From a virus, in IMG/VR virus record IMGVR_UViG_3300037264_008423, positions 124,001 through 188,000 of that record: a stretch of DNA of 64,000 bases; one strand, 5' to 3'. The notes under the pieces are model-generated. The model was given only the letters and a program-made list of their open reading frames with translations, was not told the DNA's origin and did not search any database. Every line of letters begins with the position of its first letter. Positions within the stretch are counted from its first letter, which is position 1. Positions 1-59,968 of this stretch are shown here, one piece after another. A program made the position numbers and the translations under genes.

Positions 1-900
1 CGCCGCTTCATATTGCGTTCGGTGCCGCGCCAGTGACTTATTCGAGGAGCTGCGCGCAATCCACGGAAATTCCGCGTGCAGTTGGCGCAGGACTTCAACT
101 CGCGGGGCGTTTTCGGGCGCTTCCCGCCGGATGTCACCCAAGAAATGGCCGTCCGTCGTGCCCACCAGGTAGTAGCCTACCCAGTCGGGATCGGGCTGGT
201 AAAGAACGAAAGGGTCGTCCATGTCTTTGGGTTCAAAGTCCTCCTCCGCCTCGCGGAGGCCAGCGCGGGTGCGCGGGTCCCAGGAAACCTTGGAATAGCG
301 ACCGGCTTGGGACTGGTTGAGCAGCTTGCGCAGCTTTTCGTGCTTGGCCTTAAGCCGGTCCACCTGTTTATAGTCCGGCAAACCTACCGCTGTGCCGGTA
401 TCCGCAGTCGAGGGGGCCGGGGCGGAAGGTTCGCCATTGGTGCCGTCCGAAAAGTCGGAAGTGCTGTTACTGAGATACTCGGTGACCCGGCGCTTGCGCC
501 GTTTATTGCCGTGGTAAGTCCAGCCGGGAAACTGGCGGTGAAACGCGATTCGGCGGTCCATTTCCTCCCGGTCCTCAGCCCTTCTGCGTCGCAGGTAAGC
601 TTTGCGGCGGACTTCCTGCGCCCAGTAGGTCAAGGGTCTGCCCACCCGCACTCGTCCCCAGCGATCTTTGTAGATGGGCATGCTATCCGCTTCCCACCGG
701 TTTTTCTCCGCCCCCTGCTTGCCGAAAATTCCAGAATAGCTTTGACGGTCGTGGTGTTCAAGGGTGTCAAAGATCCAGGCGCGCGCTTCTGACTCGGACG
801 CGAAGTTTCGGCTACGGGCGTAGCGCGACCACCACTTCACCGTGTCCTCCGGGAGAATCGAATCCGGGTAAATTTCTTTAAAATCGTCTAGTTCGTCCAT
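1..900 (-). CDS. hypothetical protein, C-terminus cut by window edge
   Basis: The frame is open from an ATG at 900 to base 1 (300 codons, no stop), so the C-terminus lies outside the window. The start overlaps the TAA of the upstream gene by one base (TAATG), which supports both the frame and an operon. The product is rich in Arg, Trp and Tyr. It begins MDELDDFKEIYPDS and has a basic stretch (AYLRRRRAEDREEMDRR) near residue 95. A Pro/Ser/Thr linker follows, then a helical Lys/Arg-rich segment. I recognise no family. Its place at the end of a minus-strand run with two other helical proteins fits an accessory or virion role, but that is only inferred. Confidence 0.7.
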   Translation of the reverse strand, partial: MDELDDFKEIYPDSILPEDTVKWWSRYARSRNFASESEARAWIFDTLEHHDRQSYSGIFGKQGAEKNRWEADSMPIYKDRWGRVRVGRPLTYWAQEVRRKAYLRRRRAEDREEMDRRIAFHRQFPGWTYHGNKRRKRRVTEYLSNSTSDFSDGTNGEPSAPAPSTADTGTAVGLPDYKQVDRLKAKHEKLRKLLNQSQAGRYSKVSWDPRTRAGLREAEEDFEPKDMDDPFVLYQPDPDWVGYYLVGTTDGHFLGDIRREAPENAPRVEVLRQLHAEFPWIARSSSNKSLARHRTQYEAA

Positions 901-1706: not shown

Positions 1707-2162
1707 TTATTGCCATGTTCCTGGGTTTGTCAACACCATGCGATCAATGTAGGCCGTGACTGTGGCTGCGTCCGCGTCGATGGCATACTGCTCCAGGTAG
1801 GCTTGCATCCGGGACTCGGCCAGCCCTTGCTGGCGTAGCGTCCACCAGTTTTTGACCCAATCAAAGCGGCCTAGCTCGTTTTCGATGAAGTCATAGGCGA
1901 TGTCTTGCAGATCTTCCGGGTCGTCATCCTCCAGCAGGACTTCCACCAGGGATTGCGCCGCCTCCCGTATTGTCCGCGCCTCGGCGGCGCGGCGCATACG
2001 CTCAAACTTGTTGGCGAGCGCCTGCTCTTTAGCGAGCTGTCGGCGCAGCGCGGCCAGCCTGCCCTGGTAGTCCACGCCGCCGTGGCGGTTCTCGATTTCC
2101 TCGGCAGCCTGGGCCAGTTCCGCTTCAAGCCGCGAAACCCGTTCTGTGTAAGTGCTGGACAT
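1707..2162 (-). CDS. coiled-coil hypothetical protein with acidic LLED motif
   Basis: A 151-residue protein from ATG 2162. The first 60 residues are a strong coiled coil (VSRLEAELAQAAEEIE and heptads after it). The middle carries SLVEVLLEDDDPEDLQDI, close to the LLE-acidic-KDI motif that recurs in the 26.5-30.8 kb genes. The C-terminal 60 residues are helical with Trp and Tyr. No enzymatic motif is visible. The shared motif suggests membership of the same set of putative virion or assembly proteins. Divergent from the lipoprotein gene at 2210, with a 47-base shared upstream region. Confidence 0.65.
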   Translation of the reverse strand: MSSTYTERVSRLEAELAQAAEEIENRHGGVDYQGRLAALRRQLAKEQALANKFERMRRAAEARTIREAAQSLVEVLLEDDDPEDLQDIAYDFIENELGRFDWVKNWWTLRQQGLAESRMQAYLEQYAIDADAATVTAYIDRMVLTNPGTWQ

Positions 2163-5995: not shown

Positions 5996-5999
5996 ATGA

Positions 6000-6680: not shown

Positions 6681-6681
6681 G

Positions 6682-7365: not shown

Positions 7366-7369
7366 AGAC

Positions 7370-8047: not shown

Positions 8048-8049
8048 AA

Positions 8050-9375: not shown

Positions 9376-9379
9376 AGGG

Positions 9380-10084
9380 TTAATATACTCGATACACGGC
9401 CACGCCGTAGATTTCCACAGCCACGTCAAATCGGGTCCAGGAGATCGCCAGAGCGTTGAGCACGCCGGTGCTCTCGTTGAAGGCTCCGGCTTGGGGGCCA
9501 GCCGAGCAGGCTGATAGCGAGACGCTCCCCACGCGGGGCGCGGCGCTATACTGGGCCACGGCTTCCAGCAGATTTTCGTAGGTGAAGTCCAGCACCACCA
9601 GGGAGGCGCTCAGCGATCCGAAGGCGCTGACCGTGTAGTTGGGGCTTCCTTTGGTGATATCAACGATCCAGATGGACCGGCGCGAGAGGCTGCCACTCGT
9701 GGCTGCCGTATAATTGGGATTGCCGTTACCAGCAATATGCGTGGAGATGGAACCTTTGCGGTAGCGGTAGTAAGCCGCGCTCTGGAAGTAAGGATTGCCG
9801 GAGCCAGCAATGTAGGCCAGGGAGTAGGCACCGGCTGGTCCAAAGCCAAAGCCCAGGTAGTTAGGGCAGTTCCAGGACAGCATGCCATAGGGATGGTTGC
9901 AAAGCCCAAAACAAAAGTCGGCGGCGGAAATGGTCGCATTAGCATCGAAAGCCATAAGCAATCCGATCCGCAGCCGAGTCCAGCCAGATCCCACCGTCAG
10001 GGGCCGGACATACTCATCGTTGCGCAGCGCCAGGCAGTGCTGGCTGTTGCCGCTGAAAAATTTTTGGCTGAGGATAAGTGACAT
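9380..10084 (-). CDS. tail-appendage paralogue 6
   Basis: 234 residues from ATG 10084 (MSLILSQKFFSGN). N-terminal motif LALRNDEYVRPLTVGSGWTR and LRIGLLMAF; internal AYIAGSGNPYFQSAAYYRYR; C-terminal LAISWTRFDVAVEIYGVAVY. It lacks the extension of paralogue 5. Its stop lies 4 bases before that gene's ATG. Predicted virion appendage subunit. Confidence 0.7.
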   Translation of the reverse strand: MSLILSQKFFSGNSQHCLALRNDEYVRPLTVGSGWTRLRIGLLMAFDANATISAADFCFGLCNHPYGMLSWNCPNYLGFGFGPAGAYSLAYIAGSGNPYFQSAAYYRYRKGSISTHIAGNGNPNYTAATSGSLSRRSIWIVDITKGSPNYTVSAFGSLSASLVVLDFTYENLLEAVAQYSAAPRVGSVSLSACSAGPQAGAFNESTGVLNALAISWTRFDVAVEIYGVAVYRVY

Positions 10085-10085
10085 G

Positions 10086-10820
10086 TCAGTTGGTAAGATC
10101 CTGCCAGGTTGCGTAAACGGCTATCCCATAAACCTCCAAGGGCACTGCCGCGTTGGACCAGTAGAGGCTGATACTGTCCACGGGTCCGGTGGATTCGTTG
10201 AAGGCCATAAGTCCGCTATTGTAGGCCACGGCGATCACACTGCCACGCAGAGTCAAGGTGTTTAGCCGCGTTTGATGCACTCCTTCCAGCAGGTCGCTCA
10301 TGCTGTATTCGGTCCGCGCCTCGGCGATGCTGGTGGGAAAGTAAACGGAAGTGGTCCAGTTGGGCGACCCTTTGTAAATGTCCGTAAACATGAATCCGCG
10401 AAATCCCTGTCCCGCCACGGGGTGGTAGCGTGTCCCCCCGTCCGCCCCCGCGTTAAATATCGTGCTACCGCGTCTGCTTGCCACTCCTTTGGCCGCGATG
10501 GAGTAATAGGGTGGAGGACCCGTGTTATACACGGCAGTCGCGGCCCCGTAGTATTCCGTGGCAAGGGTGCCCCCGATCCAGTTGGCGGTGCTGTTGGACT
10601 TCATGCCTTGGGTGTCGTCAATGGGCGAAGCGGACGCGCAGACCCCCAGGCCGTGGCGAGTGATGCTAAAGTTGCCGGAACCCTGGATGGCGTAAAGGAT
10701 GCCAATCCTGATCTTGTTCCAGCCGTTATCCCACTCCAGCTTGCGGACAAATTCCTCGTTGGTCAGGGTGAAGTAAGGATTCACCCCGTCACCAAACGTT
10801 CTGGTAGCAAACGATGACAT
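10086..10820 (-). CDS. tail-appendage paralogue 7 (first of the array)
   Basis: 244 residues from ATG 10820. Family N-terminus (YFTLTNEEFVRKLEWDNGW then KIRIGILYA) and C-terminus (ISLYWSNAAVPLEVYGIAVY). AGGAG lies about 12 bases upstream of its ATG, one of the few Shine-Dalgarno-like matches in the window, though the spacing is long. It directly follows the fibre gene at 10822 with one base between them, so the array appears to be transcribed as the downstream half of the fibre operon. Confidence 0.7.
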   Translation of the reverse strand: MSSFATRTFGDGVNPYFTLTNEEFVRKLEWDNGWNKIRIGILYAIQGSGNFSITRHGLGVCASASPIDDTQGMKSNSTANWIGGTLATEYYGAATAVYNTGPPPYYSIAAKGVASRRGSTIFNAGADGGTRYHPVAGQGFRGFMFTDIYKGSPNWTTSVYFPTSIAEARTEYSMSDLLEGVHQTRLNTLTLRGSVIAVAYNSGLMAFNESTGPVDSISLYWSNAAVPLEVYGIAVYATWQDLTN

Positions 10821-19489: not shown

Positions 19490-20101
19490 TTAAAGGGCGA
19501 TGTTTTCGAGGTCGGCCAGCTTAATAGGACCGGCTGCGGTTACTTCCGCTGCCGGTTCCGAAAGGCTCTCCGCATCCGGGTAAAAATGAATGGAACTGCG
19601 GCTGCCGTGTTCCATCGTGTAGCCTAAGCCGCGCGCGGTCAGGTCTAACTCGTCAAGCAGCTTGGAGTTTTCTTCCAGGTGATCGGCCAGCAGTCCGCTC
19701 AGGGTCATGGAGAACGCGGCGTTTTGCGCGTATTCCGGGTAGGGTCCCCGATAAGCTCCCTGGGGCCACACCTTGAACTCGCCGGACAGCCCCTTGTTAT
19801 TCATGAACTCGGTAATGCTTTGGACCGCTTGGTCGGGCTGAAGCGAGCCGGTGTAGTCCTTGGGGTCCAGATCATCGATTTCCGCTTCTCCGATGTCCTG
19901 AAGCAACTTGTGAAGCTGGTAGAGCTGACCCGCGCGCTGGCGCGAAACATTGAGCTGCCTGCCGATGGTCCGGTAGGGCAGCTTGAGTTTGTCGCGCATG
20001 CGCGCGACGTAGGCGGCGCGCTCCCGCCGCACCGGATTGTCCGCTTCCGTCAGCAGGTCCACGACCGCGCTGATTAACCAGTTGTTATGCTCGTCCGCCA
20101 T
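19490..20101 (-). CDS. helix-turn-helix DNA-binding protein
   Basis: About 203 residues from ATG 20101 (a TTG one codon upstream is also open). Residues 24-62 contain RRERAAYVARMRDKLKLPYR then TIGRQLNVSRQRAGQLYQL, a helix-turn-helix of the sigma-region-4/Trp-repressor-like type (LPYRTIGRQLNVSRQRAGQL). The remainder is acidic, alpha/beta and unrecognised. It probably regulates phage genes. The large palindrome lies 35 bases beyond its stop. Confidence 0.6.
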   Translation of the reverse strand: MADEHNNWLISAVVDLLTEADNPVRRERAAYVARMRDKLKLPYRTIGRQLNVSRQRAGQLYQLHKLLQDIGEAEIDDLDPKDYTGSLQPDQAVQSITEFMNNKGLSGEFKVWPQGAYRGPYPEYAQNAAFSMTLSGLLADHLEENSKLLDELDLTARGLGYTMEHGSRSSIHFYPDAESLSEPAAEVTAAGPIKLADLENIAL

Positions 20102-20110
20102 CAAGGCTAA

Positions 20111-24741: not shown

Positions 24742-26481
24742 ATGCCGGATCAAGTTGAACCAGTGGGCCAGGCTCCCGTCGCCGAGACACCGCCAGCCAA
24801 GCCAGCGCGAAAACCGAAAGTTTCTCCCCTGGAGAAGCTGAAGCAGAAGTATCGGCTGGACGATACGGTGCGCATTTTGGAAGCGGGACCCGATGGCAGG
24901 CCGCTGGGATCGGGGCCGCTGCTGGACCCGGAGGTCTTCAACCGGTTTGCCGCGCTGGACCCCTCCAAGGATAAGCGTTACCTGGACTGGATGCTGTTTC
25001 AAGTTGGGGGCGGCGTGGCGGCTTTTAAGCGGAGCATGGAGCAGTGGGGCGTGGATATTCCCGAAGTCCAGCCCGACGATTTAATCCGGCGATTTAACAC
25101 CGAGATCACGAACCGGCTCTCCACGGTGGATTTGAATGAGATTGCCAGGTCAACGGGCATACCGCAGCTTCCCCGCCTGTCCGCCGAGATCAGCCAGGCC
25201 ATGACTCCCCGTGATCCGGTCGCATCCTACCAGAGCTTATTGGCTTTGCTCCAGCAGCGCCAGCTCCGTCCGGGCAAGGAGGAAAAGCTGGCCATGGAGC
25301 TGGTCAGCCACAAGCTGAAGAAGTGGATCAAAGACCAGAGCGACGTGCGCGTGCGCGACCGGGTTCACATCATGACGGTGTGGAGCCGCACGCTGCGAGG
25401 CATGACCCGCGAACAGGCCGAGGCCGAGTGGCAGCGGATCATGCCCACCCGGATGCGGGAGTATATGCTGGGCGACCAGGATAGCTCCAAGCGGACGCTC
25501 TTCGGATTCAATCGGCACTGGCCGGGCCGGGAAAGCCGTTACGAAACCGTTCACGACGAAATGAAGACCTTTCTGCAAAACGCGGAGCGGGTCAAGCGGC
25601 GCAACGATCAGTTGGAAAAGTATAACGCGCAGATCGCGATCAAGAACGCGCAGCTTCCCCCGGAGCGCCAGTTGCCGCTGCGGGAACCCATCGAGGTTGA
25701 CTTGAATATCGGGAAAGTGACGCTAGACGAGAAAAACATGGTTCTGAGCTATCGCGGCCCTTATCCCACGGTGCAGGAATTGTCCAAGGCGAATGAGGCG
25801 ATTTCGGAAATGCCGCTGCGGGATCGAGTCCGGGCGGATGTGCGCTACGCGGGTCCGCAGGGAAAAGAAGGCCCCGGAGAGAAACTTTACTCCGACGAAA
25901 ACCTGGATGTGTTTGTGCCTTTGACGATGGCGGCCAGTGTGCAGTCAGGCCATCCCGGTTGGGAGATCAGCGATCCAGCGCAGTATCAAAGCATTAAGGC
26001 CAAAAGCCAAGGCCACAGCATGACCGCTTGGACGGCCAATTACTCCGGGCTGGATGTGGTCGGTGATGAGGGTGGAGGGGGTCGCGATTACATGCGCGTG
26101 CCCATCATCTTCCATTTAAAGAGAGCGGTTAAACCGGAGTTTAGTCGGCTCCTGCTGGCCACGCCTATTGACGAGTTGGTGGAGCTGAGTCCTCCCTACT
26201 TAGGCTTAAAGTTCCGCATGGGAGAGACCAGAGAAGTGATCCTCAAAGATCTGGTGCAGCAAATGAAGAGCACCCTGCCGCGCGACGTGTATCTGTCCAC
26301 GCTGCGCAGCGTGCGCGACGCCATCCGCTTTATTCAAAAGTGGGCCGGAGGTTTTGATCCGGGCCGCGTCGTGGCTGATCCCACCGCCTATCACCTGCGA
26401 CGCATGGGCGGTCCCGCGCGCAGCTTCAAGGAGGAGATCGAGCTGAGAGCGCGCCAAACCATGAATTTGCTTATCGCATGA
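24742..26481 (+). CDS. large hypothetical phage protein, possible virion component
   Basis: About 579 residues from ATG 24742; an in-frame GTG at 24694 would add 16. The N-terminus is Pro/Lys-rich. DPSKDKRYLDWMLFQVGGG near residue 75 resembles a motif seen in large uncharacterised proteins of other big phages. Residues 180-400 are helical with many Arg and Glu (EYMLGDQDSSKRTLFGFN, QLEKYNAQIAIKN), and the C-terminal half contains KSQGHSMTAWTANYSG. No enzyme motif stands out. It is coupled by ATGA to the acidic LLE-motif gene downstream, which suggests a shared pathway. The region upstream is shared with rusA and contains ATGTTTAC. Confidence 0.6.
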   Translation: MPDQVEPVGQAPVAETPPAKPARKPKVSPLEKLKQKYRLDDTVRILEAGPDGRPLGSGPLLDPEVFNRFAALDPSKDKRYLDWMLFQVGGGVAAFKRSMEQWGVDIPEVQPDDLIRRFNTEITNRLSTVDLNEIARSTGIPQLPRLSAEISQAMTPRDPVASYQSLLALLQQRQLRPGKEEKLAMELVSHKLKKWIKDQSDVRVRDRVHIMTVWSRTLRGMTREQAEAEWQRIMPTRMREYMLGDQDSSKRTLFGFNRHWPGRESRYETVHDEMKTFLQNAERVKRRNDQLEKYNAQIAIKNAQLPPERQLPLREPIEVDLNIGKVTLDEKNMVLSYRGPYPTVQELSKANEAISEMPLRDRVRADVRYAGPQGKEGPGEKLYSDENLDVFVPLTMAASVQSGHPGWEISDPAQYQSIKAKSQGHSMTAWTANYSGLDVVGDEGGGGRDYMRVPIIFHLKRAVKPEFSRLLLATPIDELVELSPPYLGLKFRMGETREVILKDLVQQMKSTLPRDVYLSTLRSVRDAIRFIQKWAGGFDPGRVVADPTAYHLRRMGGPARSFKEEIELRARQTMNLLIA

Positions 26482-27143
26482 GAGCCGAAACGCTAGCCCT
26501 GGTCCCCCCCATCCTCGGTCACCTGCTGGAGGACAACGACGAGGACGACTTCGACATGAAGGATCTGGCGGAGCTGGGTACCGAGGACATGTGGATTCAG
26601 ATTGATGGCGACTTTGGCGATCCCTGGGAATACGGGGGCGACTGGTATAACTCCGTGACCAACGAGGTTATCCACTGGGACGGCATGGAGATGGAAACCG
26701 AGGGGCCGGACGCGCCCACGGACCCGGACGATGTGGAGGTTCCGGCCAGCATGACCGCCGCGTTGGACCGGCGTTTCCCCTTGGACTACATGGACCCGGA
26801 TGGAGACGAGGAGTGGACGCGGCGCGTGCGGGACGACAATGAGCGCGAGCGCGAGCGTTTAATCGGCCAGTATCAGTATGCGCGCGCGGCCTATTTGGAC
26901 GCGCGCAAACCTCACACGGTGTTTATTATTGACATCAATCCCGATGGCGTGCTGGACCACTGGCTGCAAGGCAGGGTGGAAGATGCCGCGCGGACAATGG
27001 GCATGCCCGTGGCGGATTTCACGGCCATGCCCTTAGCCAGCCAGATGGTGGAGTTTGGCCGCTATCTTGGATACAGCGACCTCGGTTATTCGGAAAGAAT
27101 GTCCAAAATTGAGCTGGCGCGCCAGCTCAACACCACGCTTTAG
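26478..27143 (+). CDS. acidic protein with LLE-DDFDMKDL motif
   Basis: 221 residues from ATG 26478. Near the N-terminus PPILGHLLEDNDEDDFDMKD ends in KDL, the motif shared with the minus-strand genes at 28.8-30.8 kb. The rest is very acidic (EGPDAPTDPDDVEVP) with Trp/Tyr and helical segments. No catalytic motif. Its stop overlaps that of the convergent gene at 27140. By analogy with capsid-targeted internal proteins of T4-like phages it could be a processed head protein, but this is inference. Confidence 0.6.
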   Translation: MRAETLALVPPILGHLLEDNDEDDFDMKDLAELGTEDMWIQIDGDFGDPWEYGGDWYNSVTNEVIHWDGMEMETEGPDAPTDPDDVEVPASMTAALDRRFPLDYMDPDGDEEWTRRVRDDNERERERLIGQYQYARAAYLDARKPHTVFIIDINPDGVLDHWLQGRVEDAARTMGMPVADFTAMPLASQMVEFGRYLGYSDLGYSERMSKIELARQLNTTL

Positions 27144-27835
27144 CGCAGGCCGTTGAGTAGGTCCCGCACTAGCTCGTGCGCGGCCTCCGCCACACTGGAC
27201 TCGGTAATACCCTGAGTGCCGCAGATCCAATCCGCCAGCGCCGCCCCGAAGTCCTCGAAAATTTCCTGGGAAGAGTAGGCGGAGATCAAGGGAACCAGCG
27301 GGTGATAGCGGCGCAGATTGGCGTAAGCCTGAGTGGCTCCCCACTTGCGCAGGTTCACGTTTTGTGATTGCGCGTAGGGCACGCCGTTAGCGATCATGGC
27401 GTTGGCCAGGTTGAGGGCCACGTAGCGGTCCATTGCCGTTTTAAACGACTCCACCATGTCCCGGTAACTTTTAAAGTCCGGGGTCAGCTTGCGCTGAACG
27501 GCGTCGATCTGCTCGGACTTGGGCAGGCAGAGCTTATTGGTCCAGCGCCGCTTAAGGGGCGTCTTAGCCTGAGCGTAAAGCAGATGGCCGAACTCCCGGA
27601 TCAGGGCGTAGCAACCGGCTTGGCTGGATTTTTCCAGCAGGGAGGGGTAAAGGGAAATGCGGTGCGAGCCGTCCCGCGCCACTTCCGTATCGCTGGTCAC
27701 CCGCTGCTCCTCCATCTTGTTCCAGACGATCTCGCTCCACAGCCGATTCACGTGGCTCAGCTCGGCGACGGGACCGTCCTTCAAGAGTGTCCCCGCCGCT
27801 TGAATCAGGCTATCGTAGCGGGTTTCCGCTGGCAT
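27140..27835 (-). CDS. zincin-like protein with degenerate REFGH site
   Basis: 231 residues if started at ATG 27835 (MPAETRYDSL), which lies inside the 3' end of the upstream gene; the frame is open to 27925. Residues about 75-95 read CYALIREFGHLLYAQA, like the active helix of zincin metallopeptidases (H-E-x-G/x-H), but with Arg in place of the first His. Further on, SSQEIFEDFGAALADWI resembles the downstream helix with the third ligand. It may be an inactive relative or have lost zinc. Function in the phage unknown. Confidence 0.5.
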   Translation of the reverse strand: MPAETRYDSLIQAAGTLLKDGPVAELSHVNRLWSEIVWNKMEEQRVTSDTEVARDGSHRISLYPSLLEKSSQAGCYALIREFGHLLYAQAKTPLKRRWTNKLCLPKSEQIDAVQRKLTPDFKSYRDMVESFKTAMDRYVALNLANAMIANGVPYAQSQNVNLRKWGATQAYANLRRYHPLVPLISAYSSQEIFEDFGAALADWICGTQGITESSVAEAAHELVRDLLNGLR

Positions 27836-28793
27836 CGACGGGGATGCTGCTGAACTCGCGCGCGTTAGCTTGGGTGATATAAAGGTTCTGATAAAGTCCG
27901 TATTTGACGGGGAGTTTAAATTCATTGGGTCTTGTTTTCCAGGTTTTGCACTTTCCGCTGACGCGCACCCGCTTGGGTTGCCCGGTGGTGTAGCGTTCCG
28001 TGCGGCTATAAAATTCCTGCCCGTAATGGGCGCTCATGCAGACGAGTTTGGTCACTTCCCCAGGGTAGGTGGGTTCGTCGGTTGAGAGGGTGCCGCCCAG
28101 GATGTCTTTGATGGATTCGTCGTCATCATCCAGTGACTCAACCAAGTCTCCAAGAAATATCGGGTGCGACAGCTTATGGATCTTCGCTTTCCGGCCCCAA
28201 CGCCGATAGGAGCCGTGGTCATAGTCCAATGGATAGCCTTGCAGGGCTTCTCCCGCGTTCAGGCGGTATTTTATTTCCCGCCAGGGACCAAAGCGCCTTG
28301 CGCTCCGGGTCGGATAGAGTCCCATAAGTCGCCAGGACTTGTCAAAAGAGCTGCCGTGCTTATTACCTTGGCGGCCAATTTCCCCCTCCTCCGTCACGGG
28401 GAAGTATTCGCTGCCATCGTAGATTTCATAGGCGATCTGGCGCGCGCGGGGAGCGACGCCGGAGATGTCCTTCAGGTCATAGTCTTCCTCCTCCTCGTCC
28501 TCTCTTAGCGCAGGCTTCTTAAGTGGATGCTTGAAGATGTCTTTCTGCGGATCGGGATCGTTTACTTTCTCAACCTCTTTTTTCAGGCGTTCAATCTCGT
28601 GACGGTTGCAGGTGACGCATTTGCGGTTGACTTCGGCCTCGCCGTAGCTGCGGAAAGCGCCGTGCAGGGTGCTGCAACCGGGGCAGCGGCAGGTGTAGAT
28701 GGGTCCGTTGCGCAGGCGCTTGACAAAGATGCCCGTGCCCTTTTCCTCCAGGGTGCCCAGCAGATTTTCAATGATGATGTCGGCGGCGCTCAT
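27810..28793 (-). CDS. acidic zinc-ribbon protein with two DDD-KDI motifs
   Basis: 327 residues from ATG 28793 (ATGA overlap with the next gene). Zinc-ribbon cysteines occur near residues 35-65 (CRCPGCSTLHGAF...RKCVTCNRH). Two copies of the acidic motif follow: REDEEEEDYDLKDISG near residue 98 and GDLVESLDDDDESIKDILGG near residue 218. Each comes before a separate globular-looking segment, suggesting domain junctions. The C-terminus contains RPNEFKLPVKYGLYQNLYIT. Not recognised as an enzyme. Confidence 0.55.
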   Translation of the reverse strand: MSAADIIIENLLGTLEEKGTGIFVKRLRNGPIYTCRCPGCSTLHGAFRSYGEAEVNRKCVTCNRHEIERLKKEVEKVNDPDPQKDIFKHPLKKPALREDEEEEDYDLKDISGVAPRARQIAYEIYDGSEYFPVTEEGEIGRQGNKHGSSFDKSWRLMGLYPTRSARRFGPWREIKYRLNAGEALQGYPLDYDHGSYRRWGRKAKIHKLSHPIFLGDLVESLDDDDESIKDILGGTLSTDEPTYPGEVTKLVCMSAHYGQEFYSRTERYTTGQPKRVRVSGKCKTWKTRPNEFKLPVKYGLYQNLYITQANAREFSSIPVDASGNPLR

Positions 28794-29569
28794 TCGTTCC
28801 AAATGGTTTTGCCGGTGAGTCCGTCTAAGAGCGCCACGTAGTCTCCATTCTGGTTGGTGACGACAACATACTGGCTGCCTTTAGGCATGCGTTCCCCCTG
28901 GACCATCGACTGGAGCTTGTCCGTGTCCTCGTAGCGCAAGTCGTCGTCCAGAGCCTCGGTCGCGACCCAAACGCCATAGTCGCTGCCATCGCCTGGATGC
29001 GAGCCGACGTAGGTGTAAGGCGGAGTGTGCTCTTCCAGCGCACTGATCAGGGTTTCCCAGCAAAACTCCGGGTCGGATTGCGCGATTTCCTCGGTGTAGT
29101 TCTGGCGCAGTTCCTCGGCTTCCTGGGGGGCGACCGATTCCAAGGCATCCAGAAAGGCGGGGATCAGGTCCTCTTCATGCATCGTGGCGTGGCTGATGGT
29201 GCCCAAGGGTAGATACCGTTTTTCCACGTAGTCCGGCAGGATGTCTTTGATATCATCCTCGTCCTCGACGCTCTCCACCAACTGCCAGCCGTGAGTGGGG
29301 TGTTGATAGAGCAGCGTGGCCATAACGCGGCGCGGTTCGCGGCTGCCGAACTGGCCATAGATGTAGGTTTCACCCTGGGGATTGGTGTGCTGAAAAGTGC
29401 CGGTGCAGCACAGGCCCAGGTGTTTAAATTTGCGCTCGATGGCCTGGTCAAGCATCTGGTTTTTCGTGAACTCGGCCCCGGCTTCGTCCGGCGCGGACAG
29501 ATCTTTCAGATCAAAGTCATCATCGTCGGATTCAAGTAGCGCCCGGAGAATTTCATTAATCCGTTTCAT
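28790..29569 (-). CDS. acidic protein with N-terminal LLESDDDDFDLKDL tag
   Basis: 259 residues from ATG 29569, chosen over an upstream start because MKRINEILRALLE matches the N-termini of the next genes. The sequence ALLESDDDDFDLKDLSA follows, and a second acidic element, LVESVEDEDDIKDILP, lies near residue 95. The body includes LGLCCTGTFQHTNPQGETYI and EEHTPPYTYVGSHPGDGSD. No catalytic pattern. The short amphipathic helix ending in LLE is what T4-type prohead proteases recognise (cleavage after L/I-x-E). Hence a head-localised protein is a reasonable hypothesis. Confidence 0.55.
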   Translation of the reverse strand: MKRINEILRALLESDDDDFDLKDLSAPDEAGAEFTKNQMLDQAIERKFKHLGLCCTGTFQHTNPQGETYIYGQFGSREPRRVMATLLYQHPTHGWQLVESVEDEDDIKDILPDYVEKRYLPLGTISHATMHEEDLIPAFLDALESVAPQEAEELRQNYTEEIAQSDPEFCWETLISALEEHTPPYTYVGSHPGDGSDYGVWVATEALDDDLRYEDTDKLQSMVQGERMPKGSQYVVVTNQNGDYVALLDGLTGKTIWNE

Positions 29570-30248
29570 GGGGGTCTTGACTCCGATAATCACTTTGCTG
29601 CCAGGCCCAAAACTCAGGATCGTCCGGGTCAAAGTCCTGGAAGAAGGAAGCGTAAGGGTCGGAGCCGAAGCCCGTGGGGCGTGGCAACCCCTGTTCGCCG
29701 GAATCTTTGTGCTTGAGATGACCGGAGCGATAGTGTCGCGCACGCTCTTGGCCTACGGAGCCAGCGCGCATCTTGGGGTCCACGTGATACAGGCGGCGCT
29801 TGGCAGCCGAACTGATCTTCATGCTGTGCAGGAGCTGACGAAAGAGGGCGGATATTTCAGATTGGCGCTTGCGCTGAAAGTGGGGATAAGTGACATATTT
29901 ACCTTCCGGGTCATGCTCGCTGGGCCGGTAGTTATCAGGGTTTTCCTTCCATTCTGGCGATTTCCAGATCATGCCCCGCCAGTCCCGTATATGACCATTC
30001 GTCGTCGGAGACCACTGTTTTTTTGTCTCGTAGTAAACTCCCAGGCTTTTGTCCAAGTAGGCAACCGGCGTCAAAAACGAGATGAGGAAGGTGTAGCCCG
30101 GCATGTCCACCAGCTTCCAACGGCCAAACCGCTTGACCTGGGTTTTACCGGCAATGGGTGCCGCCTCCGGCTCGGCGATGTCCTTAACGCTGAAATCATC
30201 CTCGTCCGCCTCCAACAGGCGATTAATAATGGAGACGCAGAAGTGCAT
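29556..30248 (-). CDS. acidic-tag protein, paralogue of the next gene
   Basis: 230 residues from ATG 30248 (TAATG overlap). N-terminal tag: IINRLLEADEDDFSVKDIAE. The following segment KRFGRWKLVDMPGYTFLISF then LTPVAYLDKSLGVYYETKKQ is clearly related to ERFDRWANVTIGQRQFCVSY then LTPVAMYEPGKGVVITDRYW in the neighbouring gene, so the two are tandem duplicates. The C-terminal 90 residues, basic and helical (RKRQSEISALFRQLLHSMKI), are unique. Probably a small structural domain. Unknown role. Confidence 0.55.
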   Translation of the reverse strand: MHFCVSIINRLLEADEDDFSVKDIAEPEAAPIAGKTQVKRFGRWKLVDMPGYTFLISFLTPVAYLDKSLGVYYETKKQWSPTTNGHIRDWRGMIWKSPEWKENPDNYRPSEHDPEGKYVTYPHFQRKRQSEISALFRQLLHSMKISSAAKRRLYHVDPKMRAGSVGQERARHYRSGHLKHKDSGEQGLPRPTGFGSDPYASFFQDFDPDDPEFWAWQQSDYRSQDPHETD

Positions 30249-30757
30249 TAAAAGTCGGAGGAGCTAATGCGCTCGTCGCTGGCTGATTTGCAAAACGGCA
30301 TTTTGTTCCAGGGCACCCTGGTCGCGGCGGACGCTTGGCGTTTCGACCAGCGCACGTGCTGGGCCAGCTCCTTGAACCGCTGCAAAAGTTCGTCCTGGGG
30401 CATCCGGGGATAGCGGGGTTCCACTTCGCTCCAGCGGCGGTAGCCGCCTGCGGGTCCCATGCCAATCTCATTGAGCCACTTGACCACGTGCCGCCAGGTC
30501 GCGTTGGACCAGTAGCGGTCCGTGATGACCACGCCTTTGCCCGGCTCATACATGGCCACGGGGGTCAGGTAGGAGACGCAGAATTGGCGCTGGCCGATGG
30601 TCACGTTGGCCCACCGGTCGAAGCGTTCCACGCGGCCTTCCTCGTGCGAAGGCTCAGGCGGCTCGTTGGGATCACCGCCGAGGATGTCCTTAATCGTCTC
30701 CTCATCCTCGCCGTTGTCTTCCAACAGCGCCTCAACCAGATCCTCGATCTCTTTCAT
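30248..30757 (-). CDS. acidic-tag protein, paralogue of the previous gene
   Basis: 169 residues from ATG 30757 (ATGA overlap). The N-terminus MKEIEDLVEALLEDNGEDEE then TIKDILGGDPNEP is a typical member of the tag family. The ~60-residue domain after it is homologous to that of the gene at 29556. The C-terminal part is basic (RWSEVEPRYPRMPQDELLQR). The shared tag plus shared domain show local duplication. Confidence 0.55.
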   Translation of the reverse strand: MKEIEDLVEALLEDNGEDEETIKDILGGDPNEPPEPSHEEGRVERFDRWANVTIGQRQFCVSYLTPVAMYEPGKGVVITDRYWSNATWRHVVKWLNEIGMGPAGGYRRWSEVEPRYPRMPQDELLQRFKELAQHVRWSKRQASAATRVPWNKMPFCKSASDERISSSDF

Positions 30758-31365
30758 CTTACGGCGGTGACCGGCACGGGTGTCCGCTGCGGATTCTGTG
30801 GCACCAGGCCCAGTTCTTCTTGGGAGTAAACGCTGTCACCCTGGGGTTTCTGCTGGTCGGGCGCGAAGCCCACTTGAAACCGGCCATCGGGCATTCGCTT
30901 CTCGATGACGCCATTGGCTTTAACGCCCTGGCGCGCCACAGTCACCGGCACTCCCACCGCGTAGGGTTCAGGCGGTTGGCCGCTGGCGGGATTGGGCATG
31001 GCGATGCTGATCAAACCCGGCGCGGGTTTTCCCGTGGCGGGAGCGGCCACTTCACTCAGGACGTGGCGGCGGCGGGTGTGCAGCACGGCCAAGTCATGGC
31101 TCTCCGCGACGGGCAGCGCCTCCGGCGTGTATTGCTCCGGTTTGACCTGGGCCAGTTGGCGCATGGACTCAATGACACCCAGGTCATTGGTCACCCGCAG
31201 GAAACCGGAATCTTCCAAGTCGGGCAGCAGCCAGCGCCGTTTAAGGGCCTCCGCCACGCCTTCCACCCCGATGGCTGACCGAATTTCTCCAGGCAGAACA
31301 ATGGGGTTCATGCGGTTGCGCCGATCCAACAGGGATTTGGCGATTTCAGGGGGTGTCATATTCAT
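30754..31365 (-). CDS. hypothetical protein
   Basis: 203 residues from ATG 31365 (another ATG two codons later). Helical N-terminal half (EGVAEALKRRWLLPDLEDSG), Pro-rich middle, then a small beta domain (YAVGVPVTVARQGVKANGVI then EKRMPDGRFQVGFA), reminiscent of SH3-like barrels. It is coupled to the acidic-tag gene downstream. Unknown function, but probably part of the same head/assembly block. Confidence 0.5.
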   Translation of the reverse strand: MNMTPPEIAKSLLDRRNRMNPIVLPGEIRSAIGVEGVAEALKRRWLLPDLEDSGFLRVTNDLGVIESMRQLAQVKPEQYTPEALPVAESHDLAVLHTRRRHVLSEVAAPATGKPAPGLISIAMPNPASGQPPEPYAVGVPVTVARQGVKANGVIEKRMPDGRFQVGFAPDQQKPQGDSVYSQEELGLVPQNPQRTPVPVTAVR

Positions 31366-31371
31366 ACTTAT

Positions 31372-31950
31372 CTATACTTTTCGCGCTAGCTCTTTGTCTA
31401 TGGCTTTGTCCGCGCCCAGGTCTTCTTCCGCTTCCGATCCAAGATCGCCTGCCAGCCCCTCCTCGGATTCCGCGTCCAGCGCGCCGGGAGCGTCCTCTTC
31501 CGGCCCGAAATCAGGACTCATGGGCGGAGCGCCCCGGCCCAGTCCACCGGCCATCGGGTCCAGTTGGTTGGTATCGATGCCACGGGGTAGTTCCTCTTCG
31601 GAGGCAATGAGTCGCCGTAGCTGGTTCAGCAGGGAGGAAAAATAGTTGCGCAACGGCCACTTGGCGGAAGATTGCTGCTCGGCGGCGGCTTTTAGAGGTT
31701 CCAACTCGTCGATGTTGATGGAACCGGTAATCTCGTTGTCCCGCCAGGTGTTTAAAAAAGCCCGGATGCGGTCGGCGTTCTCGAAATTTCGGGCGGCTTC
31801 TTGATCGTCGAGCTTTTGTTGAAGCTGGTTTTCGATGGTGCCATACCAGGAAACTATCGCCTGGCCGGAGAATGCTTCCAGCAGGGGCGGCAGCACATTC
31901 TCCAACGTCCTGAGCGTGCCCAGGCTCTCGTAATCATGGTAGGTTTTCAT
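31372..31950 (-). CDS. hypothetical acidic protein with LPPLLE N-terminal helix
   Basis: 192 residues from ATG 31950. The N-terminus MKTYHDYESLGTLRTLENVL then PPLLEAFSG ends in the L-L-E sequence found in its neighbours. A helical body follows (ENQLQQKLDDQEAARNFENA), then a strongly acidic disordered tail (GPEEDAPGALDAESEEGLAG) of a kind found in scaffold or core proteins. No enzyme motif. It overlaps the gene upstream by 17 bases. Confidence 0.5.
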   Translation of the reverse strand: MKTYHDYESLGTLRTLENVLPPLLEAFSGQAIVSWYGTIENQLQQKLDDQEAARNFENADRIRAFLNTWRDNEITGSINIDELEPLKAAAEQQSSAKWPLRNYFSSLLNQLRRLIASEEELPRGIDTNQLDPMAGGLGRGAPPMSPDFGPEEDAPGALDAESEEGLAGDLGSEAEEDLGADKAIDKELARKV

Positions 31951-33139
31951 TAGGGTCATCATCGTCAGGCAACGGAGGTAGCGCAGGTAATCCCGTTTTA
32001 GGAGCGGGTAAACCGTTAGGGTTTTCCCGGTGCCAGCGTTCCCGCTCGGAGGCGCTCATGCCCAGGTAGGTCATGGGCGCGAATTTGCGTCCCGAAGGCG
32101 CAGCGGGGGGTGGCTCGCTCAAAAACTCTTCAGCAGACCCCGCCTGGCCTCCCTGCGCGCTCGCACCAAAGGCTTCACTCTGAACGCGGCGCTTGACTTG
32201 CTTGTTGACAATGGGCTGCTTGACGGTCCATTGCTTGGGCATGGCAAATTTAGTGCCCCTGCCGTAGGGCGCTGGTTTCTTAATAATGCCAGCTCCCGCG
32301 ATCCCCTGGGGTCCGCCGTCCACGGTGCCCATGCTGCCCGTGGTGGTCATCTCCTGGAGGCCCCCTTCCTTGATACCCATCTTTTTTAGAAACTTAGCTT
32401 TTTTTCCCTGATATTGAGCACGGTCTTGGGACTTGTTCACAGCGGCCAGGGAGCCGCGTTTAAAGGTGCCTTTTTTAACGGGCTGCATCGCCTGCTTGTC
32501 GGCTTGAGCTTCGGGCAAGTCGAGCAAGTCATCCACGTTGACATCATCCATTTTTAGGCTGTCGTGGATGGCTTTCTCCGGCGTCTCGCCCTGTTTGGGT
32601 TTGCCGACCCCCGCTTGGCGCTGGCCCATTTCACCATCGTCGGTTTCGACCGGATTCAGCTCGTCGCTGCGGTCCAGCGGTTCGGTCGCAAATTCTCTCG
32701 CCTGCTGGTTGATGGCCTTGACCTTTTGGTCCGGTTTGTCCTTGTCGCCCGTGTCCACGGTGGTGATTTCCAGAAAACGAACTCGATATTCGGCAGGTTC
32801 GCTGGTCATGGCGGCATCGCCAGGCTTGGTGACCACCCAGCCCATCTCCGCCAGCTTATGCATGGCTTCGGCGGTGCCCAGGACGGTCAGGATGTCGCTG
32901 TAACGTTCGCGGTTATCCGTGCAAAGGCAGAATCCCTCCGGGTCCATCTGGAGATCGGAGTCACTGATGCCGAACTCGCTCAGGGCCTTGGCTAAAGGCG
33001 TTTTCTTGGCCTTCAACTCGCCTTCCACTTCATCGGCGGCGGCCTCGAACAATTGCTCCAGGTTTTCCGCCAGATTCGTTTCCACCGAATCCGACTCAGC
33101 CGACTCCAGGAACAGGAAGCTTAGCAAATTCTTTTTCAT
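31934..33139 (-). CDS. hypothetical structural/assembly protein with FLFLE N-terminus
   Basis: 401 residues from ATG 33139 (MKKNLLSFLFLESAESD); the open frame reaches 33202. The N-terminal hydrophobic helix ending in FLE and followed by an acidic stretch is like the T4 capsid-targeting sequences. Residues 45-130 form an alpha/beta unit (PLAKALSEFGISDSDLQMDP). The long middle is low-complexity Lys/Gln/Gly, and the end is Pro-rich with an acidic tail (PLPDDDDPNENLP). A scaffold-like or internal head protein would fit; this is inferred only. Confidence 0.5.
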   Translation of the reverse strand: MKKNLLSFLFLESAESDSVETNLAENLEQLFEAAADEVEGELKAKKTPLAKALSEFGISDSDLQMDPEGFCLCTDNRERYSDILTVLGTAEAMHKLAEMGWVVTKPGDAAMTSEPAEYRVRFLEITTVDTGDKDKPDQKVKAINQQAREFATEPLDRSDELNPVETDDGEMGQRQAGVGKPKQGETPEKAIHDSLKMDDVNVDDLLDLPEAQADKQAMQPVKKGTFKRGSLAAVNKSQDRAQYQGKKAKFLKKMGIKEGGLQEMTTTGSMGTVDGGPQGIAGAGIIKKPAPYGRGTKFAMPKQWTVKQPIVNKQVKRRVQSEAFGASAQGGQAGSAEEFLSEPPPAAPSGRKFAPMTYLGMSASERERWHRENPNGLPAPKTGLPALPPLPDDDDPNENLP

Positions 33140-33290
33140 GCCTTTAACTGTCGTAACTACAATCTGCCCCGCCCTGCCATCGGCGCTCGGTTTTGTAAAC
33201 AATTAGCGGCTTGCTTTGTGCCTACAAGCATATGGATGCTGTTTTGGATTTATTGACAGGTATTATACGCTCTGGTAGATCATATAGTAT

Positions 33291-33860
33291 ATGCAAGCCA
33301 CTAAGCTGACGTTTGTGAAATCGCTCGGTGTCAACAACTATCATCAAAGGGTGTCCCTTTGGCGTTGTGAGTGTGGGCGAGAAAAAGCGATTATCCACAG
33401 CCGGGCGGTTAGAGGTGCGACTAAGAGCTGCGGCTGTCTTCAGCGCGAAGCTCTGGCCAAAACAGTTGCGATTTATCGCAGGAAACCTTACGGCGAATCC
33501 TGTTTCAATAGTCTGTTTGGACTTTACCGGGCAGGAGCTAAAAGGCGCGGCTTCTGCTTTGATCTTACTCCGAATGAGTTTGCGAAACTTGTAGCGCAAC
33601 CGTGCTTTTACTGCGGGTGCCAGCCCAGTTCCAAACACCGTAGAAGTAGCTGCTACGGAGAATTTGTTTACAGCGGCATTGACAGAGTGAAAAACACGGT
33701 CGGTTATACCTTGGAAAATTGCGTTCCGTGCTGCCAGATTTGCAACAATGCGAAACGGACTCTCAGCTTGGTAGAATTTGTAGAATGGATTACGCGGATA
33801 CACAGGCACATTAATAGGTCCGGCGTCTTGGAAAAATTAAAGCATCTGACCACCACCTAG
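33291..33860 (+). CDS. HNH homing endonuclease
   Basis: 189 residues from ATG 33291. An N-terminal zinc finger (WRCECGR...SCGCL: C26, C28, C47, C49) of the type that begins many phage HNH proteins precedes the nuclease. Residues 105-153 give C-x2-C...SGIDRVKNTVGYTLENCVPC then CQICNNAK, the standard HNH signature G-I-D-R-x2-N-x2-G-Y-x3-N-x2-P-x-C-x2-C-N. The gene is in the opposite orientation to both neighbours, overlapping the end of the helicase gene by 50 bases, as expected for an inserted selfish endonuclease. Confidence 0.85.
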   Translation: MQATKLTFVKSLGVNNYHQRVSLWRCECGREKAIIHSRAVRGATKSCGCLQREALAKTVAIYRRKPYGESCFNSLFGLYRAGAKRRGFCFDLTPNEFAKLVAQPCFYCGCQPSSKHRRSSCYGEFVYSGIDRVKNTVGYTLENCVPCCQICNNAKRTLSLVEFVEWITRIHRHINRSGVLEKLKHLTTT

Positions 33861-42931: not shown

Positions 42932-43504
42932 TTATTTAATGACTACTAATACGTCGTCAAATCGATTTTTGGCGTAGCGGAGATCAACAATGCGCACCGT
43001 GCGCTGCGGATCGAGTGCCTTGAACAGTTCTCGGTCGCGGTCGATGTTTTCAATATCCTCGATGATGTAAATGCCTCCCGGTGCCAGCCGGTGCCGGAAA
43101 TTTTGGTAAATGGCCAGTTGGTCGGCGACCGCGTGGCTGGCATCCTCGATGATGACGTTGAAGAGCAAGCCGCTGAGGTGCTGTTCGACTTGGGCGGGAT
43201 CAACCGCGTTAAAGAGCAGGATACGATGCGTGCCCTCGTCGATCACGGGCCGTAGATTAACCAAGCCCAACGGGTGGTCATTTAAGTCAACGCCATAGAC
43301 GCTGCCATCACTGAAATACTCCTCCAGCGCCCTGAGCGAGGAACCGGTTAATATCCCGATCTCCAGCACACGAGCGCCGGGTAGGCGGTAAGGTGCCAGG
43401 AGTATCTCGTAGGCGTCCACGAAGCTATGGACGGTTGCTTTATCGGAGCCGGAATGACAATCCGGGCCGCCATAACGGCGGAAAATTTCCGCGAGTGTTT
43501 TCAT
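42932..43504 (-). CDS. class I SAM methyltransferase (macrocin O-methyltransferase-like)
   Basis: 190 residues from ATG 43504, coupled to the previous gene (ATGA). SDKATVHSFVDAYEILLAPY is the typical N-terminal helix of this group. ARVLEIGILTGSSLRALEEY is motif I and SVYGVDLND motif II. FNVIIEDASHAVADQLAIYQ and GGIYIIEDIENID match motif IV and post-IV. These enzymes O-methylate sugars in antibiotics and glycans. Confidence 0.8.
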   Translation of the reverse strand: MKTLAEIFRRYGGPDCHSGSDKATVHSFVDAYEILLAPYRLPGARVLEIGILTGSSLRALEEYFSDGSVYGVDLNDHPLGLVNLRPVIDEGTHRILLFNAVDPAQVEQHLSGLLFNVIIEDASHAVADQLAIYQNFRHRLAPGGIYIIEDIENIDRDRELFKALDPQRTVRIVDLRYAKNRFDDVLVVIK

Positions 43505-45795: not shown

Positions 45796-46415
45796 CGGCG
45801 CGCCAGAATCAGATTTTCGCCGTTCATGTGAATCTTTTTAAAACCGTGGGAGGCAACCAGATTTTCCATCGGCTGGGCGCAGCCGTCGTGCTCCACGCAG
45901 ATGACGGCGGTTTCAGTGAGGTAATCCCACGGGAAGTTGGAAAACAGGTCCCAATTGCAGCTTTCCACATCCAGGTTGATGAACTCGAACCGCTTGCCAA
46001 AACGGTTAAACAGCTCCTCCAGAGACACGGATTTCAGCGTGTAGTTTCTGAATTTCACCCCACCGGCACCCGCCGACCACTTCTTCACGTGTTCCGGGTT
46101 GGAAGAGGAAACCGCGTCGCCGCCAGCATCCCAAAAGTCCAGCCAGCCGCCTTCCACGGTGATGGCGGCGTTCACGCAAATGACATTGGGGTTACCCCGG
46201 TGGACCTGGAGCAGGCCGGAGAAGGGCAGGGGTGACGGTTCCACGCAGATCCCCGACCAGCCCATCTCGGCCAGGCGCAGGGTATTGCTAAAGGTTTTGC
46301 CGTCATACGCGCCGATGTCCAGGAAATGGCCTGCGGATGCTTTTTCGGTCAGGAAACCGGCTTGCCGGAGCAGGTCGAGGATGACCGATTCCTCGTTGTT
46401 TTGACTGTAGCTCAT
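45792..46415 (-). CDS. FkbM-family methyltransferase
   Basis: 207 residues from ATG 46415 (a TTG six codons upstream is open but less likely). Motif I is HFLDIGAYDGKTFSNTLRLA, and WSGICVEPSPLPFSGLLQVH, NPNVICVNAAITVEGG and then FEFINLDVESCNWDLFSNFP are the family hallmarks. ILARR ends the protein. FkbM-type enzymes O-methylate sugars or lipids. It is the first gene transcribed of the minus-strand half of the glycan cluster. Confidence 0.85.
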   Translation of the reverse strand: MSYSQNNEESVILDLLRQAGFLTEKASAGHFLDIGAYDGKTFSNTLRLAEMGWSGICVEPSPLPFSGLLQVHRGNPNVICVNAAITVEGGWLDFWDAGGDAVSSSNPEHVKKWSAGAGGVKFRNYTLKSVSLEELFNRFGKRFEFINLDVESCNWDLFSNFPWDYLTETAVICVEHDGCAQPMENLVASHGFKKIHMNGENLILARR

Positions 46416-46509
46416 AGTATCATCTTTTCCCAAAAGAACGGGCTGGACGGGGGTCCTTTTTGGAAAAAGTAAAAAATATGCATTTTGCCTATTGACGGCT
46501 AACTATAAA

Positions 46510-46529
46510 TTGTTTACCTTTTCTACCTA
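46510..46529 (+). promoter_or_regulatory. TTGTTTAC-N4-TCTACC element before peptidase gene
   Basis: TTGTTTACCTTTTCTACC runs to within two bases of the ATG at 46530. The same arrangement, TTGTTTAC then four bases then TCTACC and an ATG two bases on, appears in front of the ligase gene. The repetition in two independent AT-rich gaps argues for a promoter or leader element. If it is a promoter, the mRNA would have almost no 5' leader. Confidence 0.4.
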
Positions 46530-47441
46530 ATGAACAAGAAACTGCTAAAAGAGTTGCTGCGGATTCCCTCGCACGTGCGCGAGGAAAACCTTCTTACGGA
46601 TTGGCTTATGGCTTATTTTAACAGTCGTCACGACTGCGCGGTCCGGCGCGATAAGATGGGAAATGTTTACGTTACTAAGGGCATCCAGCCGCCCTACCCC
46701 TGTGTGTGCGCTCACCTGGACACTGTTCACCCCTTGACGAACTACCTGATTCAAGAGGAGGGGGACACGCTTTACGCCGTGGATTGGACGGAACAGCGAG
46801 TGGGCTGCGGCGGAGACGATAAGGCCGGAGTTTATCTGTGCCTGCGCATGCTGGACCGCTACCCCAGCCTGAAAGCGGCCTTTTTCGTGCAGGAGGAAAT
46901 CGGCTGTCAAGGGTCAAGAGCTGCGGACCCTCAGTTTTTCACCGATGTGGGCTATGTGATCGAATTTGACTCACCCTGCGATGATATTCTAAGCTTCACT
47001 TGCGACGGGGTGCGCTTGTTCCCGCTAGAGGGTCCCTTCTACGAGGCGGTCTATCCGCAGTTGCAGAAATTTGGAGTGCTCAATTGGCAGCACCACCCCT
47101 ACACGGATGTATCCATTTTGAAGCGGCGCTTTCCTTTTCCCTGTTTGAACCTTCCCGCAGGCTATTTCCGCATGCATTCCTCCCTGGAGTATGTGCAGAT
47201 GGCGGCGGTGGAAAACACAGAGCAATTGGCCGTGTCGCTGATCGATGCCCTGGGATGCTGCGTTTACTCTTTTCGGGTCATCGAGAATGGCGCAGCGGAC
47301 CACAAATCGCCCGTGCTGGTGACTTACCTTAAGACGCACGATTATGAGAAGCGCGTTCCTGTCCCGCCCAGCACGGAGGGCGCGCGGGGATCAATCGAAA
47401 ACCGACTGAGAAAACTGGGAGCATCCCAACCCAAGCCATGA
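46530..47441 (+). CDS. M20/M42-like zinc metallopeptidase
   Basis: 303 residues from ATG 46530. CVCAHLDTVHPL (H62, D64) is the first metal-binding motif. GCGGDDKAG (D96/D97) supplies the bridging Asp, FFVQEEIGCQGS (E122/E123) the catalytic and metal Glu, VIEFDSP (D147) another ligand, and YFRMHSSLEYVQM the final His. This is the full site of the PepT/M42 aminopeptidase superfamily. Inside the phage it could trim peptides for amino acids or process a protein. It overlaps the next small gene by ATGA. Confidence 0.8.
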   Translation: MNKKLLKELLRIPSHVREENLLTDWLMAYFNSRHDCAVRRDKMGNVYVTKGIQPPYPCVCAHLDTVHPLTNYLIQEEGDTLYAVDWTEQRVGCGGDDKAGVYLCLRMLDRYPSLKAAFFVQEEIGCQGSRAADPQFFTDVGYVIEFDSPCDDILSFTCDGVRLFPLEGPFYEAVYPQLQKFGVLNWQHHPYTDVSILKRRFPFPCLNLPAGYFRMHSSLEYVQMAAVENTEQLAVSLIDALGCCVYSFRVIENGAADHKSPVLVTYLKTHDYEKRVPVPPSTEGARGSIENRLRKLGASQPKP

Positions 47442-47560
47442 TCACACCCGAAGACAACCCGGTGAACGAGAAAATGCTGCGCCGCCATGCGCGGCAAGTG
47501 CAGACCAAACTCAAAAGGATGTTTGGCACAGATGAAAGCGGCGAACCGCGCGCCGCTTAA
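47438..47560 (+). CDS. 40-residue hypothetical protein
   Basis: ATG 47438 overlaps the TGA of the peptidase gene, and the frame runs 40 codons to TAA 47558-47560, which itself overlaps the stop of the convergent helicase gene. Sequence begins MITPEDNPVNEKMLRRHARQ, with a basic middle (VQTKLKRMFG). The precise fit between two genes supports it. Function unknown. Confidence 0.5.
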   Translation: MITPEDNPVNEKMLRRHARQVQTKLKRMFGTDESGEPRAA

Positions 47561-50004: not shown

Positions 50005-50026
50005 AGCCAGGCCACACAGAACGAAA

Positions 50027-59770: not shown

Positions 59771-59780
59771 AATTTAGAAT

Positions 59781-59848: not shown

Positions 59849-59852
59849 CCGT

Positions 59853-59928: not shown

Positions 59929-59968
59929 AATCTTTTGACAGATTTTTTTGCGCGCGGTAAGGTCAAGT

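Follow-up and report, generated by a model that had tools for sequence, protein, structure and literature searches.

A recurring L-x-E element on accessory proteins of an uncultured phage lineage, a candidate capsid-targeting signal repeated between the domains of giant proteins

The present analysis concerns a 64,000-base window (bases 124001-188000) of the IMG/VR virus record IMGVR_UViG_3300037264_008423, which comprises 238,436 bases and whose remaining part was also examined. Several genes of this window encode a short hydrophobic helix ending in a Leu-x-Glu triplet (L-x-E), followed by an acidic run that closes with KDL or a similar tripeptide; helix and acidic element together are hereafter called the tag. 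An original prediction made on this DNA had noticed a recurring LLE and acidic KDL/KDI motif and read it as a T4-like head-targeting signal. The motif is real and far more widespread than was stated there, and the peptides quoted for it all lie in frame at the given places (Table 1). Gene calling relied on a simple program based on codon usage, and the start codons given are accordingly approximate. A search with the capsid protein led to 36 related IMG/VR loci, and eight records were compared with the genome holding the window (G000); they are labeled G001 and so on, G010 being a near-duplicate of G002 and G011 a relative of G003.

Table 1. Tagged genes, copies of the element and withdrawn examples in the window. 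A slash marks the position after the Glu; "new" denotes copies absent from the original prediction.
Feature	Position	Strand	Sequence	Remark
Tagged small protein, 221 aa	26478..27143	+		
Tag of the 221-aa protein	26511-26567	+	ILGHLLEDNDEDDFDMKDL	
Multi-domain tagged protein, 330 aa	27810..28802	-	MSAADIIIENLL	probable start (28793)
Internal copy, 330-aa protein	28464-28511	-	ALREDEEEEDYDLKDI; ALRE/DEEEEDYDLKDI	new
Internal copy, 330-aa protein	28101-28148	-	LVESLDDDDESIKDI; LVE/SLDDDDESIKDI	
Two-domain tagged protein	28790..29569	-		probable start ATG at 29569
N-terminal tag, two-domain protein	29498-29569	-	MKRINEILRALLESDDDDFDLKDL; NEILRALLE/SDDDDFDLKDL	
Internal copy, two-domain protein	29240-29284	-	LVESVEDEDDIKDI; QLVE/SVEDEDDIKDI	
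Tagged protein, 230 aa	29556..30248	-		
Tag of the 230-aa protein	30177-30230	-	IINRLLEADEDDFSVKDI; IINRLLE/ADEDDFSVKDI	
Tagged protein, 169 aa	30248..30757	-		
Tag of the 169-aa protein	30683-30739	-	LVEALLEDNGEDEETIKDI; LVEALLE/DNGEDEETIKDI	
151-aa protein	1707..2162	-		
Copy in the 151-aa protein	1899-1949	-	LVEVLLEDDDPEDLQDI	
300-aa protein	1..900	-		
Internal copy, 300-aa protein	220-261	-	GLRE/AEEDFEPKDM	new
204-aa protein	19490..20104	-		
Copy in the 204-aa protein	19853-19897	-	DIGE/AEIDDLDPKDY	new
PPLLEAFSG gene	31372..31962	-		outside the tag system
Peptide of that gene	31864-31890	-	PPLLEAFSG	
SFLFLESAESD gene	31934..33202	-		unsupported as tagged
Peptide of that gene	33089-33121	-	SFLFLESAESD	

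In small proteins the tag is located at about residues 8-25, behind a hydrophobic helix (ILxxLLE). The 221-amino acid (aa) protein had no match in Pfam and PHROG searches, and the adjacent genes for the 230-aa and 169-aa proteins have phrog_5643 in common. The C-terminal domain of the 330-aa protein stands alone, with a tag, in relatives (G004_094, G002_085), and so does domain 2 of the two-domain protein in one relative (G001_193, starting MRPAEQLARAVLEDGESPKRV). A single-sequence AlphaFold model of the two-domain protein was uninformative (predicted local distance difference test, pLDDT, 44), with a helix drawn at residues 2-12. The copy of the 151-aa protein is missing in three orthologues, while the G008 orthologue has an N-terminal tag instead. 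Two peptides originally listed as examples proved poor and were withdrawn after orthologue comparison: PPLLEAFSG lies in a conserved domain start, and the orthologues of SFLFLESAESD have MRKNLLEFLFGPAA or MNKMLAYLFGDSQ in its place, where LE and an acidic run are missing.

The acidic element was sought in the called proteins of the whole genome as K[DE][LIVMY] preceded by at least five D/E in nine residues, with reversed proteins as control. It occurs in 29 copies, against none in the reversed proteins, and some 20 copies lie elsewhere in the genome, mostly between domains of giant proteins. Anchoring 30 copies on the first Glu alone (P1) gave L16/V5/I4 at P3 (L/V/I in 25/30), a mostly variable P2 and S10/D8/A8 at P1' (S/D/A in 26/30). 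The leader ends in [LI]-x-E in 22/30 copies; an upstream [LIVM]-x-E was present in 27/30, compared with 13.7 ± 2.5 in shuffles, and the mis-spaced control [LIVM]-x-x-E was depleted (7 copies vs. 12.9 in shuffles). The lack of reversed matches and the L-x-E enrichment over shuffles indicate that the motif is not due to chance. Among the relatives the same signature has six copies in G008, one in G007 and none in six other genomes, G008 and G007 having the most similar capsid proteins of the relatives examined. A degenerate DNA pattern for DDF[DE]xKDL, searched in IMG/VR, returned 23 single matches, nearly all of them chance.

Tagged genes are almost all accessory. With core defined as conservation in three or more of four other genomes, 1/95 tagged genes qualified vs. 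245/994 untagged ones (Fisher p 3e-10). The sole tagged gene scored as core is the G003 orthologue of a 413-aa protein located in the window at 55344-56585 (+) as the second gene after that of the DNA polymerase; this protein is conserved in relatives, whose N-termini present RILTE/A or VFE/M leaders. Recognizable tagged domains comprise 2H phosphoesterase, NUDIX, HAD, thymidylate kinase and few others, and most tagged proteins have none. Since some tagged domains are paralogous (the phrog_5643 pair), the motif might be read as ordinary homology, that is, a conserved first strand or linker of related domains instead of a signal. This appears extremely improbable: when 83 proteins selected by their tag were aligned, mean column identity was 4% and near-invariance was limited to M1 and a single Glu, the folds are unrelated (NUDIX, 2H, HAD and others), and homologous domains carry different versions of the leader in different genomes.

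Copies at domain junctions, which had been pointed out originally, are borne out and are in fact systematic in giant multi-domain proteins, a point that had been missed. Repeated inter-domain copies were located in g055 (1538 aa), g101 (1190 aa), g070 (1145 aa), g046 (790 aa) and g103 (443 aa), for instance RLSE/SEEEDFDTKDL, QLPE/SVEDDFETKDL and RALE/SVEDDFEIKDL in g070 and NLLE/ADEDDFDAKDV in g101. These internal copies retain the [LIV]-x-E and acidic-KDL part and lack the preceding helix, suggesting that targeting takes place once per protein and that a second function is exerted at each junction. The domains following them are stand-alone or differently fused in relatives, where most start with a leader; such counterparts include 2H ligase-like (G001_089, G004_214), NUDIX (G002_123) and HAD (G002_033) domains, as well as unknown ones (G004_094, G002_085, G001_193, G008_058, G008_057). 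The boundary of the 2H domain in four genomes reads LEE/A and IME/A where internal, LLE/Q and LLE/A where terminal. This equivalence of solo and fused domains together with their signal suggests that the mobile unit is the signal plus its domain. Concerning domain identity, NUDIX (E-value = 1.4e-17) and 2H ligase-like (E-value = 1.7e-10) matches were obtained, the ART-like region was assigned by eye and weakly matched an ADP-ribosylating toxin structure (E-value = 0.67), and the GNAT-like assignment was made by eye only. Close relatives of g101 were not found in the IMG/VR search, and cultured phages, searched by tblastn with g055 and with the 169-aa tagged protein, gave no matches; for g101 the matches were confined to one domain of roughly 80 residues, and those listed came mostly from rV5-like, GAP32-like and Erwinia jumbo phages.

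Four of these proteins (g055, g070, g101, g046) have the organization of polyvalent proteins, i.e., 2-15 domains in one polypeptide that are also found solo. Such proteins, known from phages and conjugative elements, are likely packaged, and embedded zincins have been proposed as their cutters, e.g., in P1 DdrB (Iyer et al., 2017, PMC5512222). The proteins described here resemble them in being accessory, very large and composed of several domains, among which are NUDIX, 2H phosphoesterase-like and HEXXH domains and possibly also ART and GNAT domains; these likewise occur solo. They differ at their junctions, where each lineage repeats its own L-x-E element, which suggests cutting in trans by a prohead protease instead of by embedded zincins; in PMC5512222 the word 'prohead' occurs once, within a reference title. 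Self-cutting by zincin-like metallopeptidase domains could be invoked here too, as g070 and g101 contain mutually similar HEXXH domains (HELVHH, HELTH; E-value = 1e-4) and G008_057 has one as well, yet the motif is also borne by many small proteins without a peptidase domain and by giants without HEXXH (G004_042), and its Glu-directed signature fits gp21-type serine proteases. We thus regard self-cutting as improbable.

Scanning the complete genome and its relatives, as had been proposed, showed that the tag is common and that the relatives use other spellings, or dialects. Unbiased motif discovery over the first 45 residues, compared with shuffled controls, retrieved the leader as the top N-terminal motif in G001-G004, above the controls in each and differently spelled per genome: MSRARAILEAETPRSxLKR in G001, MxAKQLVNRLLEVGPDELRPKDYL in G002, MxARxxIDE in G003 and MxxAxxIVxRLLEDxxxDPxDYI in G004. 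Internal junctions follow the dialect of their own genome, being VAE/AVDPRSLLRK and VVE/AVNPREFFKR in G001, IKE/ALDPDAVDPKAY and VNE/ALDPDEIKPKDY in G002, and IIE/SEDDVDAQDYV and VQE/SADLDAPDTYI in G004. The G001 pattern has 11 matches in G001 and 1 across all eight other genomes; that of G002 has 8 in G002, 2 in G010 and 1 across the remaining genomes. Internal sites pooled from five genomes, unfiltered and including noise, carry L/I/V at P3 in 63% and S/A/T at P1' in 55%, the background being 22% and 21%, respectively. The lineage-wide sorting signal is genuine, and a single recognition machinery per lineage, reading terminal and internal copies alike, would be the simplest account of it. 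The idea of an expanded system thus gained support, although the original prediction had missed that each relative has its own dialect, common to terminal and internal copies. Applied to the cultured Listeria phage LIS04, whose capsid protein is among the better matches, and to 50 kb of T4, the same search yielded nothing above shuffles; the abundant tag is consequently not general, and the three T4 leaders lie below the reach of the method.

A prohead protease gene, the presence of which the original prediction had proposed to check, was found: g210 (record piece L013:7236-8849) encodes a T4 gp21-family protease fused to a scaffold-like tail (phrog_207, E-value = 2.3e-30). A gp23-family major capsid protein (MCP; g211, phrog_138, E-value = 3.5e-25) and a T4-type sheath are also encoded. 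The protease domain matches 710 phage records, T4-like prohead proteases among them, and the segments GLLEHP and VSSRG are conserved. At the protease N-terminus L and E are invariant over eight sequences and the middle residue varies (LAE, LLE, LVE, LIE), the variants across relatives being YLAEG, QLLEG, YLVEG, YLIEG and LLLED. In the propeptide region of the MCP, LDE is invariant across relatives and precedes the mature-like region. Two genes upstream of the protease, a small gene opens with MDSTIKRILGEAEDD (...ILGEAEDD), and its relatives have similar LGE leaders. As an observation in its own right, the MCP gene (235901-237355 of G000) and g063 (83306-83917) have an 80-residue segment in common (52% identical), and the three G000 genes at 45861-47714, 49236-50039 and 85644-86867 a segment of about 70-100 residues (40-55% identity); segments common to different genes of this genome are possibly shuffled insert domains.

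Together, the gp21-family protease, the invariant L-x-E of protease and MCP and the accessory nature of the tagged genes support the T4-like reading, in which targeting, virion location, cleavage, ejection and an anti-host role of the tagged proteins are inferences. The head function is assigned by analogy, and tagged NUDIX, HAD, thymidylate kinase and 2H phosphoesterase proteins could work in the cytoplasm, so the signal might direct its carriers elsewhere in the infected cell (an early-infection compartment, a host protease adaptor or the membrane), unrelated to the head. Such a destination seems to us hardly likely, given that the family core genes are almost all untagged, that L-x-E is common to the protease and the MCP, and that the small gene close to the protease, two positions upstream, has the ...ILGEAEDD start and its relatives one with LGE.

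We propose that the tag probably belongs to an expanded T4-like capsid-targeting system in which the prohead protease would divide polyvalent fusions into separate effectors. The N-terminal amphipathic helix ending in L-x-E would be the capsid-targeting sequence (CTS), bringing accessory proteins into the prohead core, where the gp21-type protease would cut after the Glu (consensus [L/I/V]-x-E/[S/A/D]); the lineage-specific element after it, here acidic-DDF-x-x-KDL, would be part of what the shared machinery recognizes. Giant polyvalent proteins would repeat cut site and element ahead of each domain, so that one targeting event loads a whole string of domains, which the protease would split into separate effectors prior to ejection into the host. 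Whether the lineage as a whole delivers its effectors as prohead-protease-processed polyproteins, with one leader, cuts at every junction inside the head and an element drifting as a lineage dialect followed by all copies in a genome, is a bolder statement that we consider evenly poised.

In T4, gp21 cleaves after L/I-X-E and itself has LIE-9, and a 10-residue CTS has been shown experimentally to suffice for packaging and to get cut (PMC9026906); the T4 internal proteins have only their leader in common and inhibit different restriction enzymes (PMC12373910). The system described here resembles T4 IPI-III and Alt, which carry a CTS and are processed by gp21, in the short leader on otherwise unrelated accessory proteins, its L/I-x-E ending, the variability of the proteins between relatives and the encoded gp21-family protease and gp23-family capsid protein. 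It differs in having tens of tagged proteins where T4 has a handful, a conserved element after the Glu, inter-domain copies and a dialect per lineage, and its leader is unlike MKTYQEFIAE, with only the hydrophobic helix and x-E pattern in common. Leader sequences differ between T4-like phages, which makes similarity to MKTYQEFIAE a weak guide. For P1 DarB, a virion-packaged 250-kDa protein, the first 30 residues were experimentally found to target a reporter to the head (PMC9024508); it is likewise a giant protein sent there by an N-terminal leader, but a single system for which the available part of that report describes no repeated junction motif, whereas here the tag is genome-wide. The jumbo phages phiKZ and SPN3US, with ejected head proteins, have propeptides with an x-E site (A-x-E, S/A/G-x-E) cut after the Glu and a small P1', as in the site proposed here; they differ in P3, which is L/V/I here instead of A/S/G, and the leaders here are short. 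The propeptides of those phages are mostly long, and in SPN3US the majority of head proteins are not cleaved (PMC10052503). The combination of capsid targeting with junction-cut polyvalent proteins, and lineage dialects, were not found in the literature searched.

Several points weigh against the proposal. T4 gp21 needs only L/I-x-E, so the conserved element after the cut is not explained by cleavage alone. Some internal copies lack L/I/V at P3, two solo homologues (G004_125, G004_057) are without clear tag, and one tagged protein, a NUDIX fused to thymidylate kinase, would be an odd capsid cargo. The unbiased N-terminal search was modestly above shuffles in G000 (300 vs. 264-273) and not above them in G008, while G003 and G011 conserve the leader helix (MxARxxID) with a weak L-x-E. 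In addition, the position-specific matrices and the tag and family lists were partly hand-curated, and counts are thus indicative. The helix kept in G003, the element downstream of the Glu and the dialects common to terminal and internal copies would also suit docking, in which tag and internal copies attach uncut proteins to the scaffold core or to some other hub protein of the phage. We find docking without cleavage fairly unlikely, as Glu at P1, L/I/V at P3, a variable P2 and a small or acidic P1' form a cleavage-type signature matched in the protease and MCP, and internal copies have dropped the helix and retain only L-x-E and the downstream element.

If the proposal of targeting and processing holds, the tag would reveal, without experiment, which genes of uncultured giant phages get injected at the start of infection, and this set would consist mostly of uncharacterized candidate anti-defense proteins. 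One protease would then join the capsid-targeted internal proteins of T4 with polyvalent fusion proteins, and the system would offer a clean test of how the receptor in head assembly evolves together with dozens of cargo signals.

Further features of the genome were noted. At 5288-10820 (-) of the window lie five paralogues of about 225-460 aa, which are alike in their N-terminal regions (e.g., ...LGNEEFLRQLSFGTDWQSIRIGL) and perhaps form an appendage family. An open reading frame (ORF) at 33291-33860 (+) of the window, overlapping a minus-strand ORF, resembles a homing endonuclease in its HNH-like CxxC...CxxC pattern. Three related genes, on record piece L009:2437-3719 and at 42932-43504 of the window, have similar starts (LGLRHQTDKADRYHTF..., CHSGSDKATVHSFVDAYEILLAPYR). 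Finally, five tRNA genes (Gly, Ala, Val, Trp, Tyr) are located at 59697-61556 of the window.

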